Positions 3,544 to 16,168 of a DNA stretch of 42,972 nt are shown piece after piece (position 1 is the first letter of the stretch; every line of letters starts with the position of its first letter). The stretch is taken from contig JAFXTO010000023.1 in the NCBI GenBank assembly GCA_017535725.1, positions 1-42,972 on the forward strand, written 5' to 3'. Made by a program: the position numbers and the translations under genes. The notes under the pieces were generated by a model. It was given only the letters and a program-made list of their open reading frames with translations. It had not been told where the DNA came from and ran no database searches. The DNA is from Bacteroidaceae bacterium. GTDB taxonomy: Bacteria; Bacteroidota; Bacteroidia; Bacteroidales; Bacteroidaceae.

Positions 3544-4074
3544 AAAAATTGAAAGATTGAAAATTGAAATATTGAAAGGTTGAAAGGTTGAAAATTGAAA
3601 AATTGAAAAATTGAAATATTGAAAAATTATAATGGGGCGGCCGATTATTTTTCGGAATAACGGAATAACGTGATAACGGAATAACGAAGGCCGCTTAAAT
3701 TGAAAGGTTCTTCAAGCGTGAAGCGTCGCAAGCGCCGAGCGGAAATGTTGAAAGATTGAAAAATTGAAAAATTGAAAATTGAAAAATTGAAAAATTATAA
3801 TGGGGCGGCCGATTATTTTTCGGAATAACGGAATAACGTGATAACGTAATAACGAAGGCCGCTTAAATTGAAACGTTCTTCAAGCGTGAAGCGTCGCAAG
3901 CGCCGAGCGGAAACGTTGAAAGGTTGAAATATTGAAACATTGAAAGGTTGAAAGCGGCCGATAAATCGTCGGAATAACGGAATAACGTGATAACGGAATA
4001 ACGAAGGCCGCTAAAAGAAAAAGAAAATTGAAATATTGAAAATTGAAAAATTGTAAAATTGAAATACTATATAT
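3544..4074. repeat. Intergenic composite repeat block 1 (three modules)
   Basis: This 531-bp gap holds no credible gene. It is built from two repeat types. One is runs of a 7-8 bp unit ending TTGAAA with variable first bases (AATTGAAA, GATTGAAA, GGTTGAAA, TATTGAAA). The other is three copies of a 58-bp module opening GCGGCCGA and closing GAAGGCCGC, with tandem GGAATAAC units between, at 3637-3694, 3805-3862 and 3954-4011. A third motif, with TTCAAGCGTGAAGCGTCGCA, follows modules 1 and 2. Module ends are complementary (GCGGCC/GGCCGC) and could pair in RNA. Confidence 0.9.
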
Positions 4075-4416
4075 ATGGATTACAAAAAGACAAATGCACC
4101 GACCACTACGGTCACCCAGAACATTCTGGATCTCTGTGAGGAAACAGGCAACATCTACGAGAGTGTGGTTATCATCGCCAAGCGCGCCAACCAAATCAGC
4201 GTAGATATCAAAGCTGAACTCTCCAAGAAGCTGCAAGAGTTTGCTTCATCGAACGACAATCTGGACGAGGTTTTCGAGAACCGCGAGCAAATCGAAATCA
4301 GCCGTTTCTACGAGAAGTTACCGAAGCCCAGCCTCATTGCCACTCAGGAATTCCGCGACGGTAAGATTTACTATCGCAATCCTGCCAAGGATTCCATTGA
4401 GGAAGAGGAATATTGA
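4075..4416 (+). CDS. rpoZ: DNA-directed RNA polymerase omega subunit (Rpb6-like)
   Basis: This 113-residue protein is the small subunit that helps fold and hold the beta-prime subunit of RNA polymerase. The omega/Rpb6 signature lies around residues 32-55, with the core IIAKRANQIS followed by a helix (IKAELSKKLQEF). Bacteroidetes omega proteins diverge from the proteobacterial form but keep this motif and position after bamD. The C-terminus is acidic (EEEEY). The gene sits as an island between two repeat blocks. Expression could come from the bamD promoter or from a promoter hidden in the repeats; I saw no clear -7 element directly upstream. Confidence 0.8.
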   Translation: MDYKKTNAPTTTVTQNILDLCEETGNIYESVVIIAKRANQISVDIKAELSKKLQEFASSNDNLDEVFENREQIEISRFYEKLPKPSLIATQEFRDGKIYYRNPAKDSIEEEEY

Positions 4417-4521
4417 AAGGTTGAAACGTTGAAAAATTGAAAAATTGAAAAATTGAAAGGTTGAAACGTTGAAAGCGGCCGATAAATCATCGGAATAACG
4501 GAATAACGGAATAACGATATT

Positions 4522-4631
4522 ACGAAGGCCGTGAGAAAATTGAAACGTTCTTGAAGTGTCAAGCGACCAGGGGTCGAGCGCTTCAAGCGTGAAGCGTCGC
4601 AAGGCGCCGAGCGGAAAAATTGAAACGTTGA
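4522..4631 (+). repeat. 110-bp direct repeat, copy A
   Basis: Identical over 110 bp to 4703-4812. It begins ACGAAGGCCGTGAGAAAATT and ends GAAACGTTGA. It spans the end of one GCGGCC module and the following TTCAAGCG element, so the duplication unit crosses module boundaries. Confidence 0.9.
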
Positions 4632-4702
4632 AAAATTGAAAAATTGAAAGATTGAAACGTTGAAAGCGGCCGAAATTATCGGAATAACGGAATAACGATA
4701 TA

Positions 4703-4812
4703 ACGAAGGCCGTGAGAAAATTGAAACGTTCTTGAAGTGTCAAGCGACCAGGGGTCGAGCGCTTCAAGCGTGAAGCGTCGCAAGGCGCCGAGCGGAAAAA
4801 TTGAAACGTTGA
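4703..4812 (+). repeat. 110-bp direct repeat, copy B
   Basis: Second copy of the repeat at 4522-4631, without mismatches by inspection. The first differing bases lie just outside both ends. Confidence 0.9.
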
Positions 4813-4927
4813 GATATTGAAAATTGAAAGATTGAAAAATTGAAAGCGGCCGATAAATCATCGGAATAACGGAATAACGGAATAACGATAACGAAGGCCG
4901 CGAGAAAATTGAAAGATTGAAAATTGA

Positions 4928-5458
4928 ATGATTCAAAGGATTCAGACAATCTATTTACTGGCAGCAGCCATCTTGTGTATCGTTTGCCTCTGTTTACCCA
5001 TCGGTCGTCTGGTGGATAGTCATGGCGAAGTGATAGGAACTGTATATAATCTGTGGGTTCACACCCCCTATCATGAAGCCGTGGGAGAGCCAACGTTCAA
5101 TGGTCTTAGCACCTCCGAGCCCGTGCTGGCAGAGGTGGCCGAAGGTACCCACACGTTCACCCCGTGGGCGCTCTTTGCCCTGCTGCTACTGACCTCTACG
5201 GGCCTGCTCTTCGACATCTTTCTCTATCGCACCCGTTTGGTTCAAAGCCGTCTGGCCATGCTGGGCTGCATCCTCCTCGTAGGATGGTATGCCGTTTACA
5301 CCGCTTTCTGGTTCCTGCTGGGTTCCAAATACCAGGCAGAATTCCATCCTGAACCTTGGGCTGGATTTCCTGCCGTGGCCTGCATCTTTACGTTCCTCGC
5401 CTTCAGAGGCATCCTGAAAGATGAAGCGCTGGTGCGCTCATTAGACAGGCTGAGGTGA
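4928..5458 (+). CDS. DUF4293-like four-helix membrane protein
   Basis: This 176-residue protein appears to have four transmembrane helices, at roughly residues 5-25 (YLLAAAILCIVCLCLPIG), 78-98 (ALFALLLLTSTGLLFDIF), 108-130 (LAMLGCILLVGWYAVY) and 145-162. The stretch between helices 1 and 2 is about 50 polar residues. The start MIQRIQTIYLL and the position after bamD and rpoZ match the Bacteroidetes DUF4293 family, whose function is not known. The ATG sits at the edge of repeat block 2. It is convergent with the PP2C gene, only 8 bp away. Confidence 0.75.
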   Translation: MIQRIQTIYLLAAAILCIVCLCLPIGRLVDSHGEVIGTVYNLWVHTPYHEAVGEPTFNGLSTSEPVLAEVAEGTHTFTPWALFALLLLTSTGLLFDIFLYRTRLVQSRLAMLGCILLVGWYAVYTAFWFLLGSKYQAEFHPEPWAGFPAVACIFTFLAFRGILKDEALVRSLDRLR

Positions 5459-5466
5459 GCATGGGA

Positions 5467-6258
5467 TTAACCCACAGAGATAAAGTGGACGAGAAGGACA
5501 CTCACGTTGTCCCTTCCGCCCGCTTTTTTTGCGGCCTCGACCAAGACCTGCACGGTATCGGGGGTGGTGGAAGCAGGTTGTAAGGAAGCATTTATGAGAT
5601 CCTCAATCTCATCGTTGGAGAGCATGTCACTGAGGCCATCACTACAGATGATAAAGCGGTCGTCCGGAAGCACCTTGTCCGTGATATCCACGAGGTCTGC
5701 GAAAACTTCCTCCACAGGAGAGCCGCCACCCAGACAGTTGTAAATCATGCTGCTGGGGTATGAACAGTCAGGGTATTTCTCCTGCATGGAATGGTCGCGT
5801 GAAAGCTGCTTGAGGATACCATCCCGAAAGCGGTAGGTTCGGCTATCCCCTATATTAATAAGGTATATGCGTCCGCCGTAGCCAAAGAGTCCCGTAAGTG
5901 TTGTACCCATATCGCTGTATTCCGGCTGCTGAACTCCCCGTTCTACTATCCCCAGATGCGCATGCTTCGCCCATCGGTCGATGATCTCGTGGAAGTCTTC
6001 ATCCGACAACCCTCCGGGCACTTGTGCCAGGAACTGGTCGAAGTACTGCAAGGCCAGTTCACTTGCAAACTCTCCTCCATTCGTCCCACCCATCCCATCA
6101 GCCACAAGGGTACAGAAGCGCGCCTCGCCAGAGAGGGTGTAGCTCTGCTGCGCTTCCTGATCTCGGTAGTACTCTCCATTAAGGAGGATCATATCTTCGT
6201 TGTTGGTTCGCACACATCCGACGTCTGTGATGAGGCGACATTGCATCTCGATGTTCAT
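5467..6258 (-). CDS. PP2C-family protein serine/threonine phosphatase
   Basis: Predicted metal-dependent phosphatase (PPM/PP2C) that removes phosphate from Ser/Thr. The 263-residue protein carries the metal-binding motifs in order: NNED (about residues 19-22), VADGMGG (52-58), GDSRTYRFRDG, SDGLSD (about 206-211) and GGRDNVS (about 246-252). No signal peptide or membrane segment is seen, so it should act in the cytoplasm. It is the last gene of the minus-strand kinase cluster and is separated from the FHA gene by a 221-bp repeat stretch. It likely reverses the modification made by the kinase at 10893-14984. The pairing is inferred from context. Confidence 0.92.
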   Translation of the reverse strand: MNIEMQCRLITDVGCVRTNNEDMILLNGEYYRDQEAQQSYTLSGEARFCTLVADGMGGTNGGEFASELALQYFDQFLAQVPGGLSDEDFHEIIDRWAKHAHLGIVERGVQQPEYSDMGTTLTGLFGYGGRIYLINIGDSRTYRFRDGILKQLSRDHSMQEKYPDCSYPSSMIYNCLGGGSPVEEVFADLVDITDKVLPDDRFIICSDGLSDMLSNDEIEDLINASLQPASTTPDTVQVLVEAAKKAGGRDNVSVLLVHFISVG

Positions 6259-6479
6259 GAAATAAATTGAAATATTGAAAGGTTGAAAGGTTGAAAAATT
6301 GAAAAATTGAAAGCGGCCGATTTTTTCGGAATAACGGAATAACGTGATAACGTAATAACGTAATAACGAAGGCCGCGAGAAAGTTGAAAGATTGAAATAT
6401 TGAAAGGTTGAAAGGTTGAAAGGTTGAAAGGTTGAAAAATTGAAAAATGAAATAATTAGAAAATTAGAGAGGGGAGAGG
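6259..6479. repeat. Composite repeat block 3 between the FHA and PP2C genes
   Basis: These 221 bp contain one GCGGCC...GGCCGC module (6313-6376) with GGAATAAC-type units, flanked on both sides by runs of xxTTGAAA octamers. This is the same family as the blocks around rpoZ. It interrupts an otherwise compact gene cluster. I saw no TAnnTTTG element facing the phosphatase gene. Confidence 0.9.
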
Positions 6480-7220
6480 TTATGGGAGGGCTTCGAAATC
6501 AATATCTGCGAAGGTGATGGTGTCGCCTACCCAGAAGGGGGTTGGGCTGTTTGGCGGGAGGGGATGACCATTGAGACGAGTGCCATTGGTAGAACCAAGG
6601 TCTGTGACCTGCCAGCCTCCCGAGGGGGTGCGACTAATCTGTGCATGGCGCCCCGACACCATTCCGAAGGAAGCAAAGACGCTGGCATATCCACCCTCGC
6701 GACGCCCAATGAGGACCTCGTCAATATAGAGCCGGAGCTGCGGGTTCCTACATACAAGGTGGCCTGGCACCTGTCGCGGAGTGGCTTGAGATGTAGGCGA
6801 TGGGGTTGCCCCAGGTCGAATGGTAGCTCCCGCATTGGCTAAAGGCTGTGTGGAAGGACCAGTCTTTGGCGAAGGCTTCACGGAATCGAAGTCCATACCA
6901 CTGAGGAGTTTGTTGATGTCCGCAGTGATACTGGAAGAACCAAACGTAGGGGAAGAAGCTGCGGGAGCAGAAGACTGGGAAGCAGGAGAAGCTGCGGAAG
7001 TGGGAGAACCAACGCCGGAACCACGTCCGTTGTCGGCGGGACGTGCAGTGGAACCGAGGGTCTTCACGGCAACAAGAGGTTCACCACAACGCGTACAGCG
7101 TTTGCCCTTGCCAAGGGTGCCACATTTGGGACATACGTAGAGTTCTGCGCCACATTGGTCACAATAACAGCTGTCGCCTTCGATTTCGGCTTGACATTTA
7201 GGACATTTTATATAGTTCAT
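6480..7220 (-). CDS. Zinc-ribbon and FHA domain protein (phosphothreonine reader)
   Basis: This 246-residue protein has two N-terminal zinc ribbons (CPKC/CDQC at residues 6-23; CPKC/CTRC at 30-45), a long Ser/Pro/Ala-rich linker (about 52-155), and a C-terminal FHA domain (about 164-246). The FHA binding residues are present: IGRR (171-174), SGRHAQ (189-194) and STNGTRLNG (210-218). FHA domains bind phosphothreonine. The linker contains TARP (58-61) and TIRP (133-136), the motif repeated in the neighbouring kinase, so it may itself be a kinase substrate. It starts 41 bp after the AAA gene. No membrane segment is seen. Domain calls are secure; the partner is inferred. Confidence 0.9.
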   Translation of the reverse strand: MNYIKCPKCQAEIEGDSCYCDQCGAELYVCPKCGTLGKGKRCTRCGEPLVAVKTLGSTARPADNGRGSGVGSPTSAASPASQSSAPAASSPTFGSSSITADINKLLSGMDFDSVKPSPKTGPSTQPLANAGATIRPGATPSPTSQATPRQVPGHLVCRNPQLRLYIDEVLIGRREGGYASVFASFGMVSGRHAQISRTPSGGWQVTDLGSTNGTRLNGHPLPPNSPTPFWVGDTITFADIDFEALP

Positions 7221-7261
7221 CGAAAGACAATTAACGGTTTAACGATTGAAGGATTAACAGA

Positions 7262-10200
7262 TTATTCGCTGACTTGCATGTCATCTACCGTGAGCTGCGA
7301 GAGAAGGGCGTCATTGAAATCCGGAGCCTGGATGTCCATCCTGGCAATACGAGTGGACTGCCGTTTCTTCACCTTGTTAAAGAAGTTGCCGACCTCTCGA
7401 GCGTTGCCGAAGTTCTGGTCACGATGTGCAAATAAATCCTGGAAGTAGTGACGCATGACCTGTTCCGCTTCCGGTTCGAGGGTGAAATGCTCCTTTCGGG
7501 CTTTCATCAAGAAGATATCCGCGAGTTCATCGGGCTGATAGTCCGGAAATTCTATGGTCTCCGTGAAGCGAGAGGTGAGTCCGCTGTTGGTCTCTAACCA
7601 GTGGCGCATCTCGCGGGTGTAACCAGCGGCTATGCAGATGAACTTGTTCTTGTAAGTGAGTAACATCGGCAGCAGGGTGTCGATGGCTTCTTGTCCGAAG
7701 CTGTCGTTCTCTGACGTCTTCAGGGCGTATGCCTCGTCGATGAAGAGCACCCCTCCGAGGGCACTCTTAACCACACGCCCCACGTTCTTAGCCGTCTGTC
7801 CGAGGTATCCCATCACCAGGTCCTTGCGGGTGACCTCCACCAGCTTGTTCGTCGGAAGCATTCCAAGAGCATAGAAGATGTCGGCCATCATCTGTGCCAC
7901 GGTTGTCTTACCCGTACCCGGATTGCCGGTGAAAATGTAGTGGTCGAGCTGCACCTTGGCTTCCACTCCCTGACGCTGTGCGCGCAGGAGGTTGGCATTG
8001 AGGGTGTTGGCCAGTTCCCGAATTTCCTGTTTGACACTCTGGAGTCCGATGAGTTCATCGAGTTTTGCCAGCACCTGTTCGGGGTCGAGTGGTTCGGGAC
8101 ATACATAGGGGATGTCACAAGCCTCGATGGTAACCAGCTGTTCGTCGGTGTGTTCAATCCCCTCCATCACTTCCTCATTCAGACGTTCGCTCTGCAGGTC
8201 CTTTACCTTCTCCAGAAGGTTAGTCATCTCGCCCGCGTTGCCAAAGTTCTCGCTCTTGGCGTTCACCATATCAGCGACCAGTTTCGCGAGCGTCTGCTCC
8301 GCCTTTTCCGATAGTTTCATCCGACTACGCTTGACTTGCATCTTGAATATTTCCACGAGTTCTTCCGCCGTGTAGTCATCAATATGGATGAACGTCTTGA
8401 AGCGCCGTCGGAATCCCGGATTAGCACGGTCTATGAACTCGTCCATCTCTTTGCGGTAGCCCGCCATGACGACGATGAACTTTCCTGCGTCATTCACCAT
8501 GCGTGTCATCAGCGCTCCCACGGCTTCCTCGCCCGTCTGGTCGTTCTGACCAGCATCATCCACCTTCATCAACATGTATGCTTCGTCGATGAAGAGGATG
8601 CCTCCCATCGCCGCATCGCACGCCTTGTCCACCTCCTTTCCCGTGTCGTTCATGTAACTGCTCTTGAGGTGTTTGGCCTCCCTCGTAAAGACCTTATCAG
8701 TAGGCAGTAAACCGATGGCCTTGAATATCTTGCCGAGCATCTGTGCCACGGTCGTCTTTCCCGTTCCAGGATTTCCCGTAATGACAATATGGTTGGCAGC
8801 ATTCTTGGGATCTATTAGTCCACGTTCCATGCGTATCTTATCCATTTCTATACGCCTTGCCATCTTACGGACAGCATCCTTGACGGCTGTCATTCCGATA
8901 AGGCTGTCCAATTCCTCGAGCACTTCATCCACGGTCTGTTCGCGGTCAGCATCGTCCCCCTCGATGTCCTGACGGGAGAGCATGGTGAGTTCGGATGAGA
9001 CATCCTTGCCCTGTGCTCGTTCAGCCTGTATGCGGCTGTTGTGCCGTTTCTTGGCCTCCTCATAGACATTACGCACCGAGCGTGCATTGGCGAAGTCCTT
9101 CTGCCTCATGTTGTACATCATCTTGAAGAAGATGGAAAGATGTTCCTCAGCGTCCGGGCTGAGTGTGTAACGTGTCTTGCCTCCCGCTATCATACGGCGG
9201 AATATTTCCTCGAGTTCGGCAGGCTTGTAGTCGCGGAAGTTCACAATAACATTGAAGCGGGAGCGCATACCCGGATTGGAATCGAGGAAACGCCGCATGT
9301 CGTCCGTGTAGCCAGCAGCGATACATACGAACTTACCCCGGTTGTCCTCCATGAGTTTCAAGAGGGTGTCCACCGCCTCCTTGCCATAGCTGTCCTGCTC
9401 ATCCTTGATGAGTGTGTAAGCCTCATCGATGAAGAGTATTCCGCCCATAGCCTTCTCCACATAGTTTTTCACCTCCTTGGCGGTCTGGCCTATCCACTGG
9501 GAAACCAGCTCTGCACGCGATACCTCCACGATGTGTCCTATGGGCAGCAGTTCCAGCGAGCAGAAGATATCTGCGAAGATGCGAGCGATGGTTGTCTTGC
9601 CCGTTCCTGGATTCCCGAAGAAGAGGTAGTGGTCCTTGAGCTCATACTCCTGACCGCTTTCACGCTCCATTTGAATACTATTTACCAGGTCTTGTATGGT
9701 AGCTCGTATTTCATCGATTCCCACGAACTTATCCAGACTGGCCAAGACCTCTTGGGTAGATTTCTGCACATACTCTTCTCCTGTGATGTCCTGGGGTTCC
9801 ACCTGATGTCCATCGCGCCGATAGGCATTCTGTGCGATGACCTGCGCCAATCTCTCGAGGTAGTGTCCATTGCCTTTTATCTCCTCGTCAGCATCGCGTA
9901 GCTTCTTCTTCAATACCCGTTCGAGCTTGCCGAGCGCATCTGGTGTGACAGGCAGTCCCCATGCGTCTTTCAGCAGTTTCTGGGAGATGCTCAGGAGTTC
10001 TGAAAGCCCATAATCCTCGAGTTGGAAGTAGTTGGCGAACTGGTTGCGGACATCCGCATTGGCATTCAGGAAATCCTCGAGATCTCCCTTGCAGCCCACC
10101 AGAATGAGGATGAAATCGAGGTTCATGCTCTTCTTGGCGTTCAAGATGACATCAAGATCGCTGACCGTATTGGTGTCGTTGGATGATACCAGCTTGTGGA

Positions 10201-10606
10201 CATCGTAGATGCACAAGATACCTCCCTCCGCATCCTTGAGGTTGTCCACCAGATCCTCGCAGAATGAGTGGTATTCCACAGCATCGATGATGATGGGTTT
10301 GGCCTTATGGATGATGCCGTTTGCCGCAAAGAGTTTGGCGATAGCTTCCACCAGCGTCTTCTTACCCGTTCCTGTGGGTCCTATGATGATGGTGTCGTTA
10401 TTGAAGTGACTCTTGATACCGCTGGCTTGTGCACGTCTGGCAAGAACCTGATGCAAGGCTACGATTTCATTGAGTTTATCCTTGACATGATTCATGCCGA
10501 TGATTTCCGGCAACAGATTGCTGTTGGCCACTTCCATGGTCGCCCCGCACCACTTGCAGAAGCGTGCAATCTCGCGGTTCGGTCTATTGCAATGTTTACA
10601 ATTCAT
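7262..10606 (-). CDS. Four-module AAA+ ATPase, CbxX/CfxQ (SpoVK/EccA-like) family, with N-terminal zinc ribbon
   Basis: This 1114-residue cytoplasmic protein begins with a zinc ribbon (CKHC/CKWC, residues 4-20). An AAA-like module follows with P-loop GPTGTGKKT (76-84) and a degenerate Walker B (ILCIYDVHK, 130-138). Then come three CbxX/CfxQ-type AAA modules, each with GNPGTGKTT (first at 331-339) and LFIDEAY (first at 391-397). The same module type occurs in the RuBisCO activase CbbX, SpoVK and the ESX secretion ATPase EccA, which remodel protein complexes. Three concatenated copies in one chain is unusual and resembles a pre-assembled ring segment. Its substrate is unknown. The N-terminal zinc ribbon mirrors those in two other proteins of the cluster. 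A 280-bp insertion separates it from the upstream kinase gene. Confidence 0.92.
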   Translation of the reverse strand: MNCKHCNRPNREIARFCKWCGATMEVANSNLLPEIIGMNHVKDKLNEIVALHQVLARRAQASGIKSHFNNDTIIIGPTGTGKKTLVEAIAKLFAANGIIHKAKPIIIDAVEYHSFCEDLVDNLKDAEGGILCIYDVHKLVSSNDTNTVSDLDVILNAKKSMNLDFILILVGCKGDLEDFLNANADVRNQFANYFQLEDYGLSELLSISQKLLKDAWGLPVTPDALGKLERVLKKKLRDADEEIKGNGHYLERLAQVIAQNAYRRDGHQVEPQDITGEEYVQKSTQEVLASLDKFVGIDEIRATIQDLVNSIQMERESGQEYELKDHYLFFGNPGTGKTTIARIFADIFCSLELLPIGHIVEVSRAELVSQWIGQTAKEVKNYVEKAMGGILFIDEAYTLIKDEQDSYGKEAVDTLLKLMEDNRGKFVCIAAGYTDDMRRFLDSNPGMRSRFNVIVNFRDYKPAELEEIFRRMIAGGKTRYTLSPDAEEHLSIFFKMMYNMRQKDFANARSVRNVYEEAKKRHNSRIQAERAQGKDVSSELTMLSRQDIEGDDADREQTVDEVLEELDSLIGMTAVKDAVRKMARRIEMDKIRMERGLIDPKNAANHIVITGNPGTGKTTVAQMLGKIFKAIGLLPTDKVFTREAKHLKSSYMNDTGKEVDKACDAAMGGILFIDEAYMLMKVDDAGQNDQTGEEAVGALMTRMVNDAGKFIVVMAGYRKEMDEFIDRANPGFRRRFKTFIHIDDYTAEELVEIFKMQVKRSRMKLSEKAEQTLAKLVADMVNAKSENFGNAGEMTNLLEKVKDLQSERLNEEVMEGIEHTDEQLVTIEACDIPYVCPEPLDPEQVLAKLDELIGLQSVKQEIRELANTLNANLLRAQRQGVEAKVQLDHYIFTGNPGTGKTTVAQMMADIFYALGMLPTNKLVEVTRKDLVMGYLGQTAKNVGRVVKSALGGVLFIDEAYALKTSENDSFGQEAIDTLLPMLLTYKNKFICIAAGYTREMRHWLETNSGLTSRFTETIEFPDYQPDELADIFLMKARKEHFTLEPEAEQVMRHYFQDLFAHRDQNFGNAREVGNFFNKVKKRQSTRIARMDIQAPDFNDALLSQLTVDDMQVSE

Positions 10607-10895
10607 TACAGATTAACGAATTAAGTAGGTATTCAAAATTAGTTTACATATTTTATCCGTAGGTGTGTTTCATGTCTTTTAGCTTCTCTTTGGCGCATAT
10701 TTTCCTCTTATCCTCAGTCACATAGTCTGCTATTACCTCCGTCGCCATAGGAGTTATGGCTCCCCTCATCGGGTACGGATGGCCCAAGGGCAATCCTCTC
10801 AAAGACCCTCTTCGCCTTCGGATAAAAGAAAAATCTGCATCCAAATAAAAACTATAATACATAAAACTAATTATGAACACCTACTTTACAGATTA
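10606..10895. mobile_element. MITE-like insertion with inverted ends and 10-bp flanking direct repeat
   Basis: The direct repeat TTACAGATTA occurs at 10606-10615 and 10886-10895. Just inside are inverted ends of about 30 bp: 10623-10651 (AAGTAGGTATTCAAAATTAG and onward) and 10857-10886 on the opposite strand (AAGTAGGTGTTCATAATTAG and onward). Removing about 280 bp joins the kinase stop to TCTGTA and the AAA ATG, a 6-nt gap, which strongly suggests insertion into a tight operon. The interior has one 75-codon minus-strand frame (10653-10880) that resembles no transposase I know and may not be a gene. A related 38-bp sequence lies at 14997-15034. Confidence 0.7.
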
Positions 10896-13800
10896 TTGAA
10901 TATCTACGGGCACGTCATCGGGGTTGATATCCTCCAGCTTGAATCCGCCTCCCCCTGTGGAACCAGCATCATCAATGCTGTAGCCCGTTCCCGCAGGTTC
11001 ATCGTCCTGCACCTGTTCAGGCTTTGGTCTTTCCTCTGCAGGCTGCTCGGACGTCGGTTTTGGAGTGGTGGCAGGTTGTTCCTGCGTCTTCCGGCTCTGT
11101 GCCGGAGCAGACGTAGCCTTGGAATCCTGAGACGTCCCTTCCTGTTGTGCTTTGTAGCGGTTGACGATTTCTATTGTTCCGGGCGCGTTCTCCTGTGCTT
11201 CGGTCGACTTGCGGAACTCGAAGGACACCTGCTTGCCCGACTTCTTGTTTGTATAGGTGCCAACGTAGAGCATCACACCATCTTCCTCCGTCACCGAGCC
11301 GTGGTAAGAGCCATCCAATCGGTTGTTCTCCACCTTGTCGTCGAAGAAGATCTCTCCAAGAGAAGTGTCGAGATGCCCTTCCACCATCTCCTGAAGGAGA
11401 CTACGGTACTTCACATGTACCACCGCCCAAAGGTTCCCTTTGCCATCGCAATCGTAAACGTCAATCGTGGCATTACGTCCGTCGAAGGTGCCATTCCACT
11501 GTCCCTTGTAGGCCTGGAAGGCCTCACTGTCCTGTCCACCATCGAGGCTGAAGTTGAGGAAATCTCCTGTGCCGTAGGTGAACTGAATGAAGAAGAAGAG
11601 CAGGAGTGCGGTTACCAGACTGATGGGGATGGCCCTGAAGAAGAGTTTCTTGCGGCCCTCCTTCAACGTGGTGAGGTAATCATTGCTCGTATCGTAGATA
11701 CTGGAGTCAAAATCCTTGTCGCTACGGTTGTAGGCATAGTCCAACGGTTCGAGCACCGTTTCCTCGAAGCCCGGACTGAAAAGTGCGCTATTCTGCCGAA
11801 TGTTCAGCGAAGGCTTGCGGTAGCAGGAAGAATAGATGAACCACCCCAGCAATAGCAGCAACGCAATGACCACGTATGAAGCGAAAGGCATGATGAACGC
11901 CAGTGCCAGGTAGAACGCATAGTAGACAATGAGCGCACAGATGAATCCTCCGATGGCACTGCCTATGATTCCCGCGAGACAACCATCGTCGAACATGTCG
12001 CCCGAGAATGCTGCGAGGACTCCAAAGATAATGGTCATCGTCATGATAGAACCCGAATGCCAGCCAGGCAGAGGATTCTCCGTCCACGGAAGCCCGTTGA
12101 CAATCAACATGATAATCAGTCCTGCTATAGGCAGGAAGCAGAAAACGGCAACGATAGCCCGCAGGGTTATCAGCTGGGCACGGGTACTCTTGAGTTTGCG
12201 AGCCATCTCCAGCACCTGCCCCTGAGCCTCTGCGAAATCCTGATAGGTCTCGTTGTCGGGATCCAGATCACCCACTTTATTGGTGTACTCCTCACATTTC
12301 TCTTCGTAGCTGAACCGAGGCAACTTGTCGTAGCGAATGCTGGGGTCTTCCTGGTAGAAAACAGCCAGCCAGTCTTTCAGCATGCCATGCTGCATCTCTT
12401 CCAGAACCTCGTCATCGGGAATCTCACCCAGCTCGCTGGGATCCGTGATTTTCTTGTCACTCTTGGGGAAACGGTAGTAGGGGGTGACGCCCATCCCTCG
12501 AATAGCCTTGTAGGTTCCGATGCGCCAGTTGTAGGGTCCAGCCTTTTGCTGGTGTTCCTTCTTACTGACATTCGTGCAGTCACGAATCCAGTCTATCCAC
12601 TGGTCATAACGTCCGTCCTTGGACTTGAGGTAGGCATAAAGCAAGGTGTCATCGATGTTGTTGAAGTCCGTAAGGTTGTCATCAGCCCTCTTCCAGCGAT
12701 CAGAGTTTTGCGGTTCATGCTGATAGATGTCCATCTGCTTGTTGAAGAGTTCTGCCAACTGGGTGATGGTGAACACGTAGTCACTGGATGTAGGATCGAG
12801 GGACATGTAGTAGCTGACCTTGGGATTGAGGTTGAAGAGCACGGTCAGGAAACGGATGGTACTCTTCGCGGGCAGGTCTGCCAAGGCTTTCTTCACGCGA
12901 GCCACCAGTCCCTGGTTGCGTGCTCCCAGCCAATAGAAGAAGGCATCGCCATAGAGCGAGCGCATGGACTCCTGGTCAAAGGTGGCATTAGCCGAAAAAC
13001 GTATAACATCATCGGGACTGGCACATAAGAGCGGCTTTCCGGCCTTGTTCCATACGATGAAAGGCCGCGAGGGATCCAGTTGGTATATGAGTCTCCGCAA
13101 GGCTTCGTTGTCCGAGACGTTGGAATTCTTGAAATCCGCCACCGCCTTTTTAGCCAGGGCCTCCTGGCCAGACATGGACAGATAAATATACAGTTCATTG
13201 TTGGGGCTAGCCAGCCGCTGCTTGTAGGCACTGAAGTTGCTCAACAGGGAGTCGGCTATCTCCGTTGCCGTGCGCAGTCGCTTTCCAGCGACGTCAGTGT
13301 ACGGCATATCGGGGTCAAGAATCAGACAGGCGGCATAGAGTCCAGCCTGCTTGTCGCTAGGGTATTTGGACTCCACAATATCCTCGATATCCAACATCAC
13401 CTCCGGTAGTCCTGCCAATTCGTCCATCCACTTCCCTACCCTTCCGGAATAGAGGTACTTGATACCCAGCTGGGGATCGGCAAGCATCAACTGAGCCAAT
13501 TCTTCGGGCGAGTGTGCTACCAGATTCCGTGCCCCGTTGAAGAGCACTTCGAATCCTTTCTCCTTCTCTTCCTGCTCCTGTTTTTTGCCGAGGAAGGCGA
13601 GGAAGGGATCCTTGCCGCTTATCCACTCCTTCAGTTGCTCGAAAGTAGGACGTGCCTCGGGGTCGGGAGCCGTCAGTGCCATGACCAGACTGAGCATGTG
13701 GTCACTCATATTTGTGGGATAAGGCAGCTTGCCGTAGGTCTTCATACTGGCCAAGGCACGCTCGCTCTGACTCACCTGCTTCGCAAACTGTTCCTCGCCC

Positions 13801-14984
13801 ATCCACAGACAGATGAGGGTCATACCGAGGGAGTAGAAGTCGCTCTTGGGGGTGATATCCACCTCACCTTCCGTCGAGAGGTAGCTCTCGGGAGCTGCAT
13901 AGACTTTGGTACGGGCCTGATTGGTGGTTGCCACGCCTCTGGGTCCCAAGTCCACCGCAATACCAAAGTCACCAAGGACTACAGACGACTGTGCCTTGTC
14001 CACGAAGAGGAAATTACCCGGCTTCACGTCGCGGTGGAGGAAGCCCTTGACGTGACACAGATTGATACTCATCGCCATGTTGGCAAAGAACTCCGTGATT
14101 TTCTTCTCGTTCCCCCTGACGTCCACCTTGTCCAAGGAGCCATAGGGGTAGTAGAGCATCAGCTCGTAGTCACGTCGCACGGAGCGGTCTGCATCTGTGA
14201 CGTCCTTGCCATTTTTGTTGTCAGCCAAGCACCAAACGCCGTGGTCAACCGTAGCTACGAAGAGGTTCATGGCCCTGACACTCTTTACCTTATCCAAGAT
14301 AGGATGGTTGGGACTAATTCCGGGGTAGTAGAGTTTCAGCACATATTCGTTTCCTCCATTCTCCACGAGCAGTACCACAGCTTCGCCAGTCCCTTCGCTG
14401 ATGACTTTCTTGACTTTGTAACGAATGCCATTGAGGGTGTAGGAGTCTTCGTAAGTGCGTGTGACGTCTGCCACCGCTTGTTTGTCGGCCTGTGCGATAC
14501 CGGAGGCGGCTCCTGCAGAACCAGCTACGCCTTTGGTGGAATTGTCATTATCTTGCCGTGTGGTTTTTCCTTCGCCGCCGGAGGGCTTTGCAGAACCGCT
14601 GGGACGAAGGGTGGAATCACCACTGGAACCACCACTACCGCCGTTATTGGGGCGGATAGTGGAGCCACCGTTAGAGTTGGGGCGAATAGTAGAGCCGTTG
14701 TTGGAGCCACCGTTAGAGTTGGGGCGAATAGTAGAGCCGTTGTTGGAGCCACCACCGGAACTGGGGCGAATAGTGGAGCCGTTGTTGGAGCCACCGTTAG
14801 AGCTGGGACGAATGGTGGAGTCACTGCCAGAGCCGCCACCGGAACTGGGGCGGATGGTGGAGTCACTGTTGGAGCCGCCACCGGAACTGGGACGGATGGT
14901 TTGACCATCGTTTTTATTTTTGTTTCCGTTACCGAATGAATCGGGACGTATGGTGCTATTGTTATTATCGTTTTGGTCGCTCAT
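10893..14984 (-). CDS. Transmembrane Ser/Thr protein kinase with N-terminal TIRP repeats
   Basis: This 1363-residue protein starts with a disordered Ser/Gly/Asn-rich tail holding eight TIRP motifs plus one TLRP (Thr at 11, 29, 43, 57, 71, 85, 99, 109, 125), mostly 14 residues apart. A complete Hanks-type kinase domain follows (about 183-455), with the ATP lysine in YVLKLYY (K217), HRDVKPGN (317-324), DFG (339-341), APE (364-366) and SDFYSLG. A long helical region leads to about five hydrophobic segments (roughly 950-1110 and 1165-1190), then a soluble domain with QWNGTFDGRNATIDVYD and a Pro/Thr/Glu-rich tail. With five membrane crossings the C-terminal domain would be periplasmic and could sense a ligand, while the kinase is cytoplasmic. 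All catalytic residues are present. Confidence 0.92.
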   Translation of the reverse strand: MSDQNDNNNSTIRPDSFGNGNKNKNDGQTIRPSSGGGSNSDSTIRPSSGGGSGSDSTIRPSSNGGSNNGSTIRPSSGGGSNNGSTIRPNSNGGSNNGSTIRPNSNGGSTIRPNNGGSGGSSGDSTLRPSGSAKPSGGEGKTTRQDNDNSTKGVAGSAGAASGIAQADKQAVADVTRTYEDSYTLNGIRYKVKKVISEGTGEAVVLLVENGGNEYVLKLYYPGISPNHPILDKVKSVRAMNLFVATVDHGVWCLADNKNGKDVTDADRSVRRDYELMLYYPYGSLDKVDVRGNEKKITEFFANMAMSINLCHVKGFLHRDVKPGNFLFVDKAQSSVVLGDFGIAVDLGPRGVATTNQARTKVYAAPESYLSTEGEVDITPKSDFYSLGMTLICLWMGEEQFAKQVSQSERALASMKTYGKLPYPTNMSDHMLSLVMALTAPDPEARPTFEQLKEWISGKDPFLAFLGKKQEQEEKEKGFEVLFNGARNLVAHSPEELAQLMLADPQLGIKYLYSGRVGKWMDELAGLPEVMLDIEDIVESKYPSDKQAGLYAACLILDPDMPYTDVAGKRLRTATEIADSLLSNFSAYKQRLASPNNELYIYLSMSGQEALAKKAVADFKNSNVSDNEALRRLIYQLDPSRPFIVWNKAGKPLLCASPDDVIRFSANATFDQESMRSLYGDAFFYWLGARNQGLVARVKKALADLPAKSTIRFLTVLFNLNPKVSYYMSLDPTSSDYVFTITQLAELFNKQMDIYQHEPQNSDRWKRADDNLTDFNNIDDTLLYAYLKSKDGRYDQWIDWIRDCTNVSKKEHQQKAGPYNWRIGTYKAIRGMGVTPYYRFPKSDKKITDPSELGEIPDDEVLEEMQHGMLKDWLAVFYQEDPSIRYDKLPRFSYEEKCEEYTNKVGDLDPDNETYQDFAEAQGQVLEMARKLKSTRAQLITLRAIVAVFCFLPIAGLIIMLIVNGLPWTENPLPGWHSGSIMTMTIIFGVLAAFSGDMFDDGCLAGIIGSAIGGFICALIVYYAFYLALAFIMPFASYVVIALLLLLGWFIYSSCYRKPSLNIRQNSALFSPGFEETVLEPLDYAYNRSDKDFDSSIYDTSNDYLTTLKEGRKKLFFRAIPISLVTALLLFFFIQFTYGTGDFLNFSLDGGQDSEAFQAYKGQWNGTFDGRNATIDVYDCDGKGNLWAVVHVKYRSLLQEMVEGHLDTSLGEIFFDDKVENNRLDGSYHGSVTEEDGVMLYVGTYTNKKSGKQVSFEFRKSTEAQENAPGTIEIVNRYKAQQEGTSQDSKATSAPAQSRKTQEQPATTPKPTSEQPAEERPKPEQVQDDEPAGTGYSIDDAGSTGGGGFKLEDINPDDVPVDIQ
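14608..14960 (-). repeat. In-frame 42-bp tandem repeats encoding TIRP units
   Basis: The 5' end of the kinase gene is a tandem array with a period of mainly 42 bp (14 codons), each unit coding a Ser-Thr-Ile-Arg-Pro core and a Ser/Gly/Asn linker. One spacing is 18 codons, one 10 and one 16. Neighbouring units are nearly identical in DNA, so copy number could change by slippage or recombination without breaking the reading frame. Confidence 0.85.
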
Positions 14985-14996
14985 AGGAAATTAAAA

Positions 14997-15034
14997 AGGC
15001 ATTCAAAATTAGTATACATGATCATTCGTAGGTG
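14997..15034. repeat. Partial copy of the MITE-like element end, upstream of the kinase gene
   Basis: This 38-bp sequence matches the left end of the insertion at 10627-10665, with few mismatches and one gap; both contain ATTCAAAATTAGT and end CGTAGGTG. It fills most of the 57-bp gap between the zinc-ribbon gene and the kinase gene. On the minus strand it contains TAATTTTG (15004-15011), a possible -7 element 19 bp before the kinase ATG. It could be a solo element end or a shared regulatory sequence. Confidence 0.6.
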
Positions 15035-15041
15035 CTCAAGG

Positions 15042-16019
15042 TTACTGGTACTCGTATGTCTTGGTAGTCACGGTATAGGAACTGTAAACCCAGGTGCCTC
15101 CCAGTCCAGGCTCAGCGCACTCCGACGGTTGGCGATGGAGGTTATGGCAAAAGTTACACTCCCACATAGCCGGATCGTGGACCACCTTGGTTCTGATGAC
15201 GGGCAGCTTGCGTGCCGAGAAGTAGTTGCGCTGTATCTGCGGTGGAGCGGCGGGATCTGGCTGCAACTGGCTCATGAGTTCAGCCATCTCCTGCAGGCCG
15301 TCGCGGTATTCCTGCTGTATGGCCGAGAGGTCTGGTGCCTCCAGACGGGCCCGCTTCTTGGGAGCGGCAGGTTTCGGGGCAGAAGGCTTGGGAGCTTCGG
15401 GCTTAGGTGCTTCCACGGCAGCCATCCCCATCCCCGCCATCATCTGCTTGTACTGCTCCACGAGGGCTTTCTCCTCTGCTGTCAGTTCGGCCATCTGGCT
15501 GAAATCAGCCACGCGTTCCTCTTCTTCTTCTTCAACTTGCACCGTTTCGCTGGCCGCCTCCCGCATCTTGTCCTCCAGTTCCGCCAGCCTCTTAGCCAGG
15601 GTCAGCATGCGCCCGAAGACGGGATCGTTCTTGGCCCGTTCCATTTCTTCCTGAGCCAACTCATCAAGCGGAGCGTTGCAGTTCCGGCAGAACGAGCGGA
15701 AATTCAACACTCCACATTGAGGGCATGTCACACCCTTTCGCGAGCCGCCACATTCGCCACAGAAAAGATCTTCGGCCTCCATGGGAGCACCACAATAGGT
15801 ACAGGTACCTGTGTGCAGGGGGTGGCCACATTGAGGACATAGCTCGTAGTCGCTTTTGACTACTGCGTGACAGTTGGGACATTCGGTCGTTCCGCCAAAC
15901 AGGGGACGGTACTGCACCCCTATCCGTTCGCGTTGCTGCCCTTCGCGCTCACGTTCACGCCCGCGCATATTTTGAAATAAGGAGCGGTCTGATGGATTTC
16001 GGTGAGAGTCGTCTTGCAT
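15042..16019 (-). CDS. Multi-zinc-ribbon protein, first gene of the kinase cluster
   Basis: This 325-residue soluble protein has three zinc ribbons (Cys 47/50/61/64, 73/76/87/90 and 99/102/111/114). A helical, charged segment with an acidic run follows (about 120-190), then a Pro/Ala/Lys linker (APKPEAPKPSAPKP), and a last incomplete ribbon near the C-terminus (CNFC at 288-291 and a lone Cys at 301). The C-terminus ends in Tyr and Thr residues (YTVTTKTYEYQ). There is no recognisable catalytic domain. Zinc ribbons also begin the AAA and FHA proteins, so it may be a scaffold for the cluster. It starts 47 bp from a good promoter and lies 57 bp ahead of the kinase gene. Confidence 0.8.
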   Translation of the reverse strand: MQDDSHRNPSDRSLFQNMRGREREREGQQRERIGVQYRPLFGGTTECPNCHAVVKSDYELCPQCGHPLHTGTCTYCGAPMEAEDLFCGECGGSRKGVTCPQCGVLNFRSFCRNCNAPLDELAQEEMERAKNDPVFGRMLTLAKRLAELEDKMREAASETVQVEEEEEERVADFSQMAELTAEEKALVEQYKQMMAGMGMAAVEAPKPEAPKPSAPKPAAPKKRARLEAPDLSAIQQEYRDGLQEMAELMSQLQPDPAAPPQIQRNYFSARKLPVIRTKVVHDPAMWECNFCHNLHRQPSECAEPGLGGTWVYSSYTVTTKTYEYQ

Positions 16020-16065: not shown

Positions 16066-16098
16066 CAAATATACAAAAAATCCTCTATTGAAGCACAA
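16066..16098 (-). promoter_or_regulatory. Promoter of the five-gene kinase cluster
   Basis: The minus strand reads TTTG (16095-16098), 21 nt, then TATATTTG (16066-16073), a good match to the Bacteroidetes consensus. The first gene starts 46 nt further at 16019. It is the clearest promoter seen for the minus-strand cluster. Confidence 0.75.
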
Positions 16099-16168
16099 AA
16101 AAACTTATTTTTTTGTCCCCCGATGCGACATATTTCAGAAAAAAAGCTTTACTACGGAGAATTATGTG

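Follow-up and report, generated by a model that had tools for sequence, protein, structure and literature searches.

A conserved five-gene operon of Bacteroidota encoding a candidate kinase, FHA, PP2C, and AAA phospho-signaling unit

The window analyzed here, the entire contig 30 (JAFXTO010000023.1; 42,972 nucleotides) of the 2.9-Mb genome assembly of a Bacteroidaceae bacterium (GCA_017535725.1; 72 contigs, 76% complete), contains five intact minus-strand genes at positions 5467-16019. In order, they encode a multi-zinc-ribbon protein (ZnR), a transmembrane Hanks-type kinase (KIN), a CbxX/CfxQ-type AAA protein (AAA), a zinc-ribbon protein with an FHA domain (FHA), and a PP2C phosphatase. Together they are a conserved operon with intact catalytic and binding residues, and comparison with related loci showed that the five genes are one self-contained, transferable signaling module, gained and lost as a block of just these five genes. 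In some lineages, matching threonine motifs are found in the kinase tail and in FHA. We favor, with a probability of about 0.55, a reading in which the products form one membrane-anchored Ser/Thr phospho-signaling machine composed of a receptor kinase, a multivalent FHA platform, a PP2C reset, and an AAA motor. An original prediction, made from the sequence alone, had already proposed a single phospho-signaling unit, and that proposal stands; it had overlooked the threonine motifs, the variable C-terminus of KIN, and the four-domain layout of AAA with its degenerate first domain.

A unit of constant gene order

The original prediction described a kinase, FHA, PP2C, AAA+, and zinc-ribbon cluster on one strand, and Pfam bore out the domains of all five intact open reading frames (ORFs) (FHA domain, 51 bits; PP2C_2, 57 bits). 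AAA contains four AAA stretches and AAA lids. The zinc ribbons said to be common to the cluster were also recovered, as double ribbons in ZnR and FHA and as a separate ribbon at the N-terminus of AAA.

Early searches with AAA (61 genomes) and KIN (295 genomes) led to three more complete copies, of which two come from other bacterial families. A profile of ZnR, a protein that matches with confidence only general zinc-ribbon families in Pfam, was scanned against one genome per species (84,980 species), and the best 80 of 126 relatives were combined with the window and loci L068, L069, and L070 to give a set of 84 loci. All five families were found in 72 of the 84 by six-frame search, the figure used here (simple ORF picking gave 64), and in each of the 72 they share one strand and an identical order. 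This recurrence argues that the arrangement is not due to chance, and it removes the objection, set down beforehand with the prediction, that the families might rarely co-occur in other genomes. Among the 12 incomplete loci, L068, L070, L089, L099, L146, and L151 end at a contig end, L126 stops after a KIN fragment, and five others lack PP2C (considered below). The L126 record is labeled Ruminococcus, probably through a binning error, and its ZnR N-terminus resembles that of the Prevotella locus L132.

Median gaps between neighboring genes in the relatives are 0, -0.5, 9, and 6 nt (64 to 78 pairs, leaving out pairs more than 1.5 kb apart), and the pairwise identities of the five families correlate with each other (r 0.95-0.99; 63 loci). 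Carriers include Bacteroides cellulosilyticus (L082 is strain DSM 14838), B. timonensis, B. stercorirosoris, and Prevotella ruminicola. The carrier records bear names of Bacteroidales or of groups within that order, with L105 (Bacteroidia), L126, and L143 (uncultured bacterium) as exceptions. In a sample of the phylum, ZnR scored above 150 bits in 7 of 395 genomes, that of the window included. Five of these lie outside the class; four carry the complete unit in the same order (L179, L180, L182, and L183), and the fifth copy is on a 7-kb contig.

In the window, L077, and L078, the unit lies between a DUF4293 gene and a periplasmic-binding-protein gene. Another 21 loci around DUF4293 in the same genus (L192-L212) were surveyed over up to about 1.5 kb per side. 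The binding-protein gene is inverted in six of them, two show only an inverted outer-membrane-protein gene, and seven show neither. In the remaining six genomes (L193-L198) the two genes adjoin in the same orientation without the unit. One of these six, genome G015, carries its own unit on another contig. Flanks mostly differ between loci, the exception being one site that most Prevotella-clade loci share (families F0-F5, 30 to 41 loci), and no neighbor family was found to be constant across loci. The constant order and strand, the mostly variable flanks, and the empty insertion site in six genomes identify the five genes as a self-contained and transferable module and support the predicted grouping of writer, reader, eraser, and remodeling ATPase in one unit. 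Recurrent neighbors, assigned by Pfam (AraC regulator, DUF1963, LolA-like) or by eye from protein starts (Tex, ABC-F, peptidase M13, MetA, peptidase U32, MnmG), were considered as parts of the system and dropped as clade-specific. A plasmid search with AAA was uninformative (282 records, all below 60% identity). An apparent FHA-PP2C gene fusion in L077 and L112 proved to be an upstream ORF extension. Two copies have unusual layouts: L065 (G057) contains a 174-aa extra AAA-domain fragment between its AAA and FHA genes (14627-15151), a possible partial duplication, and L190 (G377:C4) has ZnR and KIN, with AAA, FHA, and PP2C not called alongside by simple ORF picking.

The unit is present or absent as a whole and patchy within the genus (10 of 139 genomes, many of them incomplete, have a ZnR score above 200 bits). 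Such a pattern would also suit an anti-phage defense system in which KIN detects infection and growth is halted by the AAA motor or through a phosphorylated host target; the PADLOC models closest to the unit are those of Mad6/PD-T4-6 kinases and IetA ATPases. We consider this explanation unlikely. In a PADLOC scan of the five proteins, KIN was matched at best over its kinase domain (mad6, 107 bits, residues 276-455), with nothing for ZnR, FHA, and PP2C. MADS and PD-T4-6 systems call for a full-length kinase match together with partner genes; the match of KIN is not full-length (NCBIfam MADS6, 54 bits against a cut-off of 460), and membership in a known defense system was rejected. The unit contains no effector domain, most loci of the Prevotella clade occupy one chromosomal site among housekeeping-looking genes, and no ZnR relatives were found in viral contigs or phage records.

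Threonine motifs in the kinase tail and the FHA protein

Most KIN tails carry recurring threonine motifs whose sequence depends on the lineage: TIRP in the window, DKTLRP in B. cellulosilyticus, DKTLKP in L086, SGTQRP in L094, and QGTAVAP, GTAIPS, GGTSIAGG, QKTATAP, or QKSDTA elsewhere. Outside the Prevotella clade (the diverse loci), in counts that include near-duplicate loci, 38 KIN tails (3,762 aa) contain 112 copies of the pattern T[ILVM][RK]P, spread over 19 of the tails, and 31 FHA proteins (6,247 aa) contain 13, one each in 13 proteins; the pattern is absent from the rest of KIN (39,070 aa) and from ZnR, AAA, and PP2C (60,104 aa). The 272 neighbor proteins of these loci (107,983 aa) contain one copy, and shuffled tails 0.45 on average and 3 at most. 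In the Prevotella clade, 86 copies were counted in 42 tails (35 of the 42), along with matches in 13 of 311 neighbor proteins and in one AAA protein. None of 19 other Bacteroidales kinases has the pattern (26 control loci, 7 of which gave no kinase ORF by motif). Under a looser definition, three or more recurring threonine windows were detected in 51 of the 79 tails that reach 40 aa, compared with 49 of 1,580 shuffled tails and one of the 19 other kinases, L039, which is part of a different kinase/FHA/PP2C operon.

In several lineages the linker of FHA resembles the tail motif of its own kinase. Seven-residue windows are identical in L085 (DKTVRPG) and L101 (GGTSIAG), L110 pairs TGTALPP with TGTAVPP, and L086 has Lys for Arg in both proteins, a pairing that is individually not significant. 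The window FHA has a second motif, TARP, at T58. Pairing was tested in 24 of the 31 diverse FHA-bearing loci, leaving out L070 (tail cut off), L152, and the near-duplicates L081, L087, L091, L098, and L106. The summed cognate score was 391 against 243 (sd 25) for permuted pairs, and none of 20,000 permutations scored as high, a result that overstates independence, as the loci share ancestry. Individually, 16 of the 24 pairs passed a shuffled-linker test at p<0.05.

One alternative is that the arrays are neutral low-complexity repeats, and the match to FHA a coincidence or the product of gene conversion. In its favor, some loci show tandem repeats of near-constant period (for example, 14-16 aa). 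In addition, the conservation of spacer and core is not fairly comparable in windows chosen by motif; a per-position conservation analysis was circular on the same ground and was dropped. Across 14 loci, though, the spacing from copy to copy ranges from 8 to 37 residues, and the nine copies of the window differ in codons. The motif is also about 225 times denser in the diverse FHA proteins than in the neighbors of their loci, and its absence from the control kinases argues in the same direction, making neutrality a very improbable account.

A second alternative is a phospho-switch of the GarA/OdhI type, in which a single FHA-linker threonine is phosphorylated and binds its own FHA domain, turning the adaptor off, and the kinase tail serves only for substrate recruitment. 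In 18 FHA proteins, chosen because each contains a motif of its lineage, one copy precedes the FHA GR by 29-40 residues despite differing linker lengths, and GarA and OdhI are among the solved FHA relatives. The Prevotella clade fits this switch poorly, with no T[ILVM][RK]P site in FHA (0 of 39) and a motif retained in 35 of 42 KIN tails, and the AAA and ZnR genes would be left unexplained. We judge the switch to be improbable.

Further substrates bearing the exact motif were sought in the window's own genome, with a result of little weight. The DNA pattern gave 14 matches against 10 for a reversed-pattern control; eight are in the KIN array, and the other six are not in frame of an ORF of at least 60 aa, in a search whose narrow pattern misses the FHA site and whose genome is 76% complete.

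A different operon in L073 (9282-18417; G165) encodes a kinase with K-T-x-x-Y sites in its N-terminal tail (TQLY, TGIY, TEVY), a Cdc48/ClpB-type AAA_2 protein, a small radical-SAM protein, a zinc-ribbon FHA protein, and a PP2C; the kinase of L040 (G063) has a similar tail (TGAY, TSAY, TSAY). These sequences may represent another system that shares the tail design but has a different +3 residue (T-x-x-Y instead of T-x-x-P).

Conserved residues and a proposed mechanism

The features of a Hanks-type Ser/Thr kinase (K, HxD, K, N, DFG, APE) are present in KIN. In 80 aligned kinases (one 124-aa fragment was left out), K217, D319, K321, N324, and D339 are invariant, the APE residues are kept in 77, 79, and 79, and the HRD Arg is replaced by Lys in 52. 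The middle region was cut by eye into four units, the first and second of which align with an hhalign probability of 95% (other pairs, 58% or less). With five membrane segments and the kinase inside, the C-terminus would lie outside the cytoplasm, a location that fits the PG_binding_1 (2 of 29) and SH3_3 (1 of 29) domains at the C-termini of relatives. L114, the sole Prevotella-clade kinase examined by hydropathy, has only 21 residues after its last segment.

Conserved residues were also seen in the other proteins. In 79 aligned ZnR proteins, the C-x2-C pairs C73/C76, C87/C90, C99/C102, and C111/C114 are retained. In FHA, the phosphothreonine-reader residues (G-R, S-x-x-H, N-G) are present: G172, R173, S189, and G213 are invariant in 71 proteins, H192 is kept in 70, and N212 in 68. 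The metal-binding Asp residues of PP2C (D22, D54, D207, and D250) are invariant in 67. AAA has the hallmarks of a CbxX/CfxQ-type protein (AAA, 199.7 bits over four stretches; AAA_lid_6, 120.5 bits; Walker A and B), and its N-terminal ribbon, C-x2-C...C-x2-C, is invariant in 76 aligned homologs of 1000-1400 aa. Domain 1 keeps the Walker A Lys in 74 of the 76; at its Walker B Glu position, 62 proteins have Asn, 7 have Glu, and 4 have Asp, as does the window protein. In domains 2-4, all 76 proteins have the Walker B DE, and 73, 75, and 76 of them have an aromatic residue at what we take, from CbbX, to be the pore-loop place. The pattern suggests a translocating motor with one regulatory domain. 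The AAA proteins of L179, L180, and L182, from outside the class, are 1385-1392 aa long, about 270 residues longer than that of the window.

The course from phosphorylation and phosphosites through binding to a motor client and an output is proposed here from these sequence features. KIN would act as the receptor kinase, with its cytoplasmic kinase domain and Thr-rich tail followed by the middle region, membrane segments, and, in many relatives, a variable envelope-side domain. When stimulated, it would phosphorylate its own tail threonines, together with the matching threonine of the FHA linker in lineages that have one. The FHA domain would bind these phosphothreonines, and several double-zinc-ribbon adaptors could thus gather on one kinase tail; adaptors carrying both site and reader might cross-link each other. 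The zinc ribbons shared by ZnR, FHA, and AAA may hold the parts together, and PP2C, as expected for its family, would remove the phosphates and dissolve the assembly. AAA would provide the output by threading or remodeling a client polypeptide, as suggested by its three complete ATPase domains and the conserved aromatics at the pore-loop place.

Several observations weigh against this mechanism, in addition to the shared ancestry of the loci in the pairing test. The prediction had credited KIN with all catalytic residues; those listed above are invariant, but a conserved alpha-C Glu was not found by alignment, no position in residues 222-261 having Glu in more than 43 of 80, so that this statement is only partly borne out. 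Hydropathy across eight kinases gave 3 to 7 membrane segments, so that the topology is uncertain. PP2C is missing, with FHA present and at least 0.9 kb of contig remaining, from L084, L091, L127, L152, and L153, suggesting that the eraser can be lost or come from elsewhere. Fewer than three recurring threonine windows were found in 28 of the 79 tails; two copies from the same genus as the window (L188 and L189) have no clear tail array, and the L190 array, with SSLKPK repeated, has Ser for Thr. Eight of the 24 pairs failed the individual test (L086, L088, L094, L096, L100, L104, L105, and L107), the best matches of L097 and L108 lie outside the array core although both pass, and by eye the number of lineages in which the kinase and FHA motifs changed together is only three or four. 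The motif is missing from FHA in the Prevotella clade, as noted above; ZnR of this clade has T-[ILVMA]-[RKNHQD]-P in its first 45 residues in 34 of 44 proteins and later in one, and most of these sites are TLNP, a weaker match. Outside the class, L179, L180, L182, and L183 have KTIR/KTVR-type tails and no such site visible in their FHA linkers. The motif-less linkers outside the class and the circularity of the per-position conservation weaken the case for the signaling machine.

A more elaborate version is more doubtful and is put forward tentatively. A phosphothreonine "address code," specific to each lineage and evolving in step, may be common to the kinase tail and FHA and insulate each copy from other kinases of the cell, and an envelope signal may assemble a phosphothreonine-FHA-zinc-ribbon condensate at the inner membrane that turns on a four-domain CbxX remodeling motor. 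Its probability was lowered because of the outside-class FHA linkers without a site. If the T-x-x-Y tails of the other kinase/FHA/PP2C operon count, such a code would be a wider design of Bacteroidota.

Features of the five-gene unit in the window (positions are those of the window)
Feature	Position	Strand	Details
ZnR, multi-zinc-ribbon protein, first gene of the unit	15042..16019	-	325 aa; DZR 40 bits
KIN, transmembrane Hanks-type kinase	10893..14984	-	1363 aa; Pkinase match
AAA, CbxX/CfxQ-type, N-terminal zinc ribbon and four AAA domains	7262..10606	-	1114 aa
FHA, double zinc ribbon, linker, and FHA domain	6480..7220	-	246 aa
PP2C phosphatase, metal ligands conserved	5467..6258	-	263 aa
Promoter-like site, Bacteroidales type (TTTG, 22 nt, TATATTTG)	16066..16099	-	Sequence reading and pattern scan
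KIN N-tail Thr motifs, nine T[I/L]RP at residues 11, 29, 43, 57, 71, 85, 99, 109, and 125	14601..14954	-
KIN kinase domain, about residues 183-455	13620..14438	-	Pkinase 92.4 bits
KIN middle region, residues 456-934	12183..13619	-	No Pfam match
KIN membrane region, residues 935-1139, five hydrophobic segments	11568..12182	-	Simple hydropathy
KIN C-terminal part, predicted envelope side	10896..11567	-	Hydropathy; no Pfam match
ZnR C-terminal module, residues 260-325, conserved W-x-C-N...H...P...C	15045..15242	-	Alignment
FHA-linker Thr motif TIRP (T133), 39 residues before the FHA GR	6813..6824	-

Surroundings, known systems, and significance

The original prediction saw one clear promoter for the unit. 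A promoter-like site does lie upstream of ZnR, with TATATTTG at 16066-16073 and TTTG at 16096-16099, an assignment based on what we take to be the Bacteroidales promoter consensus. Its singularity is less certain: TAATTTTG is also found directly upstream of KIN (15004-15011) and AAA (10634-10641), the pattern TAnnTTTG is common in the window (20 observed, 12 expected), and the unit has internal gaps of 286 and 221 nt. Twenty other ORFs of the window were scanned against Pfam, and four had no match. Families named include UvrB, a YfiO lipoprotein, an Rpb6-type RNA polymerase subunit, DUF4293, an acyl-ACP thioesterase, the acetolactate synthase small subunit, outer-membrane proteins, S9 and M49 peptidases, an arabinofuranosidase, a Fur protein, a HAD hydrolase, and a sigma factor. 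At 3880-5093, overlapping minus-strand ORFs with repeated FNFSIFQ-like peptides are probably AT-rich intergenic repeats around the Rpb6 gene and not genes.

Type VI secretion systems have a comparable set of kinase, FHA protein, and PP2C (PpkA/Fha/PppA), and the unit might be the regulatory part of an unrecognized secretion or surface-assembly apparatus encoded elsewhere, analogous to that set or to EccA. PpkA and PppA act on Fha1 and Hcp1 secretion (PMC6213207), the best named models for AAA are SpoVK, EccA, and CbbX, and the C-terminus of KIN probably faces the envelope. In agreement with the prediction that secretion genes are absent here, no secretion-system Pfam family, those of type VI and ESX included, was detected among the 20 other window ORFs, the rest of the genome not having been searched for secretion genes. 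Linkage to type VI core genes was not seen, FHA scores 25.2 bits with the TagH/Fha-type model TIGR03354 (cut-off 120.25), and no neighbor family is constant over loci. The EccA model gives 648.7 bits, above its cut-off of 466.65, but over four stretches, the best of which spans model positions 269-549 of 557 and leaves the N-terminal half unmatched. EccA itself combines an N-terminal TPR region with a single CbxX AAA domain and is encoded beside ESX genes. Secretion-system membership, including EccA/ESX type VII, was rejected on model scores, the window Pfam scan, and the non-constant neighbors, and the broader idea of an apparatus encoded elsewhere seems unlikely.

Solved relatives of AAA include CbbX (3syk, 257 bits) and EccA1 (9lur, 228 bits), which with SpoVK belong to the same AAA family; the window protein differs from them in its four AAA domains per chain, N-terminal zinc ribbon, and degenerate first domain. 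GarA and OdhI, sequence relatives of FHA in the Protein Data Bank (PDB), likewise have a phosphorylatable Thr N-terminal to the FHA domain and act as phospho-switches; to our knowledge, they have no zinc ribbons, kinase-tail motifs, or AAA motor. The match to the archaeal FHA protein ArnA (solved chain 5a8i) spans profile positions 38-199, a stretch that starts at the second ribbon and includes the FHA domain. ArnA contains a zinc finger, and its partner ArnB is a vWA protein. This partnership is archaeal, whereas none of the five proteins matched a vWA family in Pfam. The GAP1-N2 kinase/PP2C/vWA neighborhoods are predicted conflict systems that combine kinase and PP2C with zinc-ribbon or transmembrane parts; as set out in Kaur et al. 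2020 (PMC7159879), they differ in being actinobacterial, GTPase-centered, and equipped with a vWA protein.

The five-gene unit may work like the FHA clustering of Rv1747/PknF/PstP in Mycobacterium tuberculosis, in which PstP is a PP2C; membership in that system, or in any secretion or defense system tested, is not established. Rv1747 has FHA domains around a disordered linker and forms condensates that are promoted by the kinase and reversed by PstP (PMC9312465). Its linker and FHA domains lie within one ABC transporter, whereas in the five-gene unit the kinase bears the motifs, a separate zinc-ribbon adaptor is the reader, and an AAA motor belongs to the operon. A literature search in which few subscription journals were covered returned neither a published description of the five-gene set nor a named system with these families, which would have undercut the proposal. 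New here, as far as the sequences indicate, are the threonine motifs of the kinase tails and the presence of the same motif in the FHA linker of several lineages.

Ser/Thr kinase signaling in Bacteroidota, a dominant phylum of the gut and rumen, looks little studied, given that a term search of the main text of a 2018 review of bacterial Hanks-type kinases found no word beginning "Bacteroid" (PMC6213207). The operon offers a complete set of writer, reader, eraser, and motor in one small unit, present in isolates such as Bacteroides cellulosilyticus DSM 14838. The likely target sequence of the reader sits in the kinase tail, which opens the phosphosite, the interaction with the reader, and the output to direct tests. 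The lineages also provide natural pairs of kinase tail and FHA domain in which the co-evolution of phospho-specificity could be studied.

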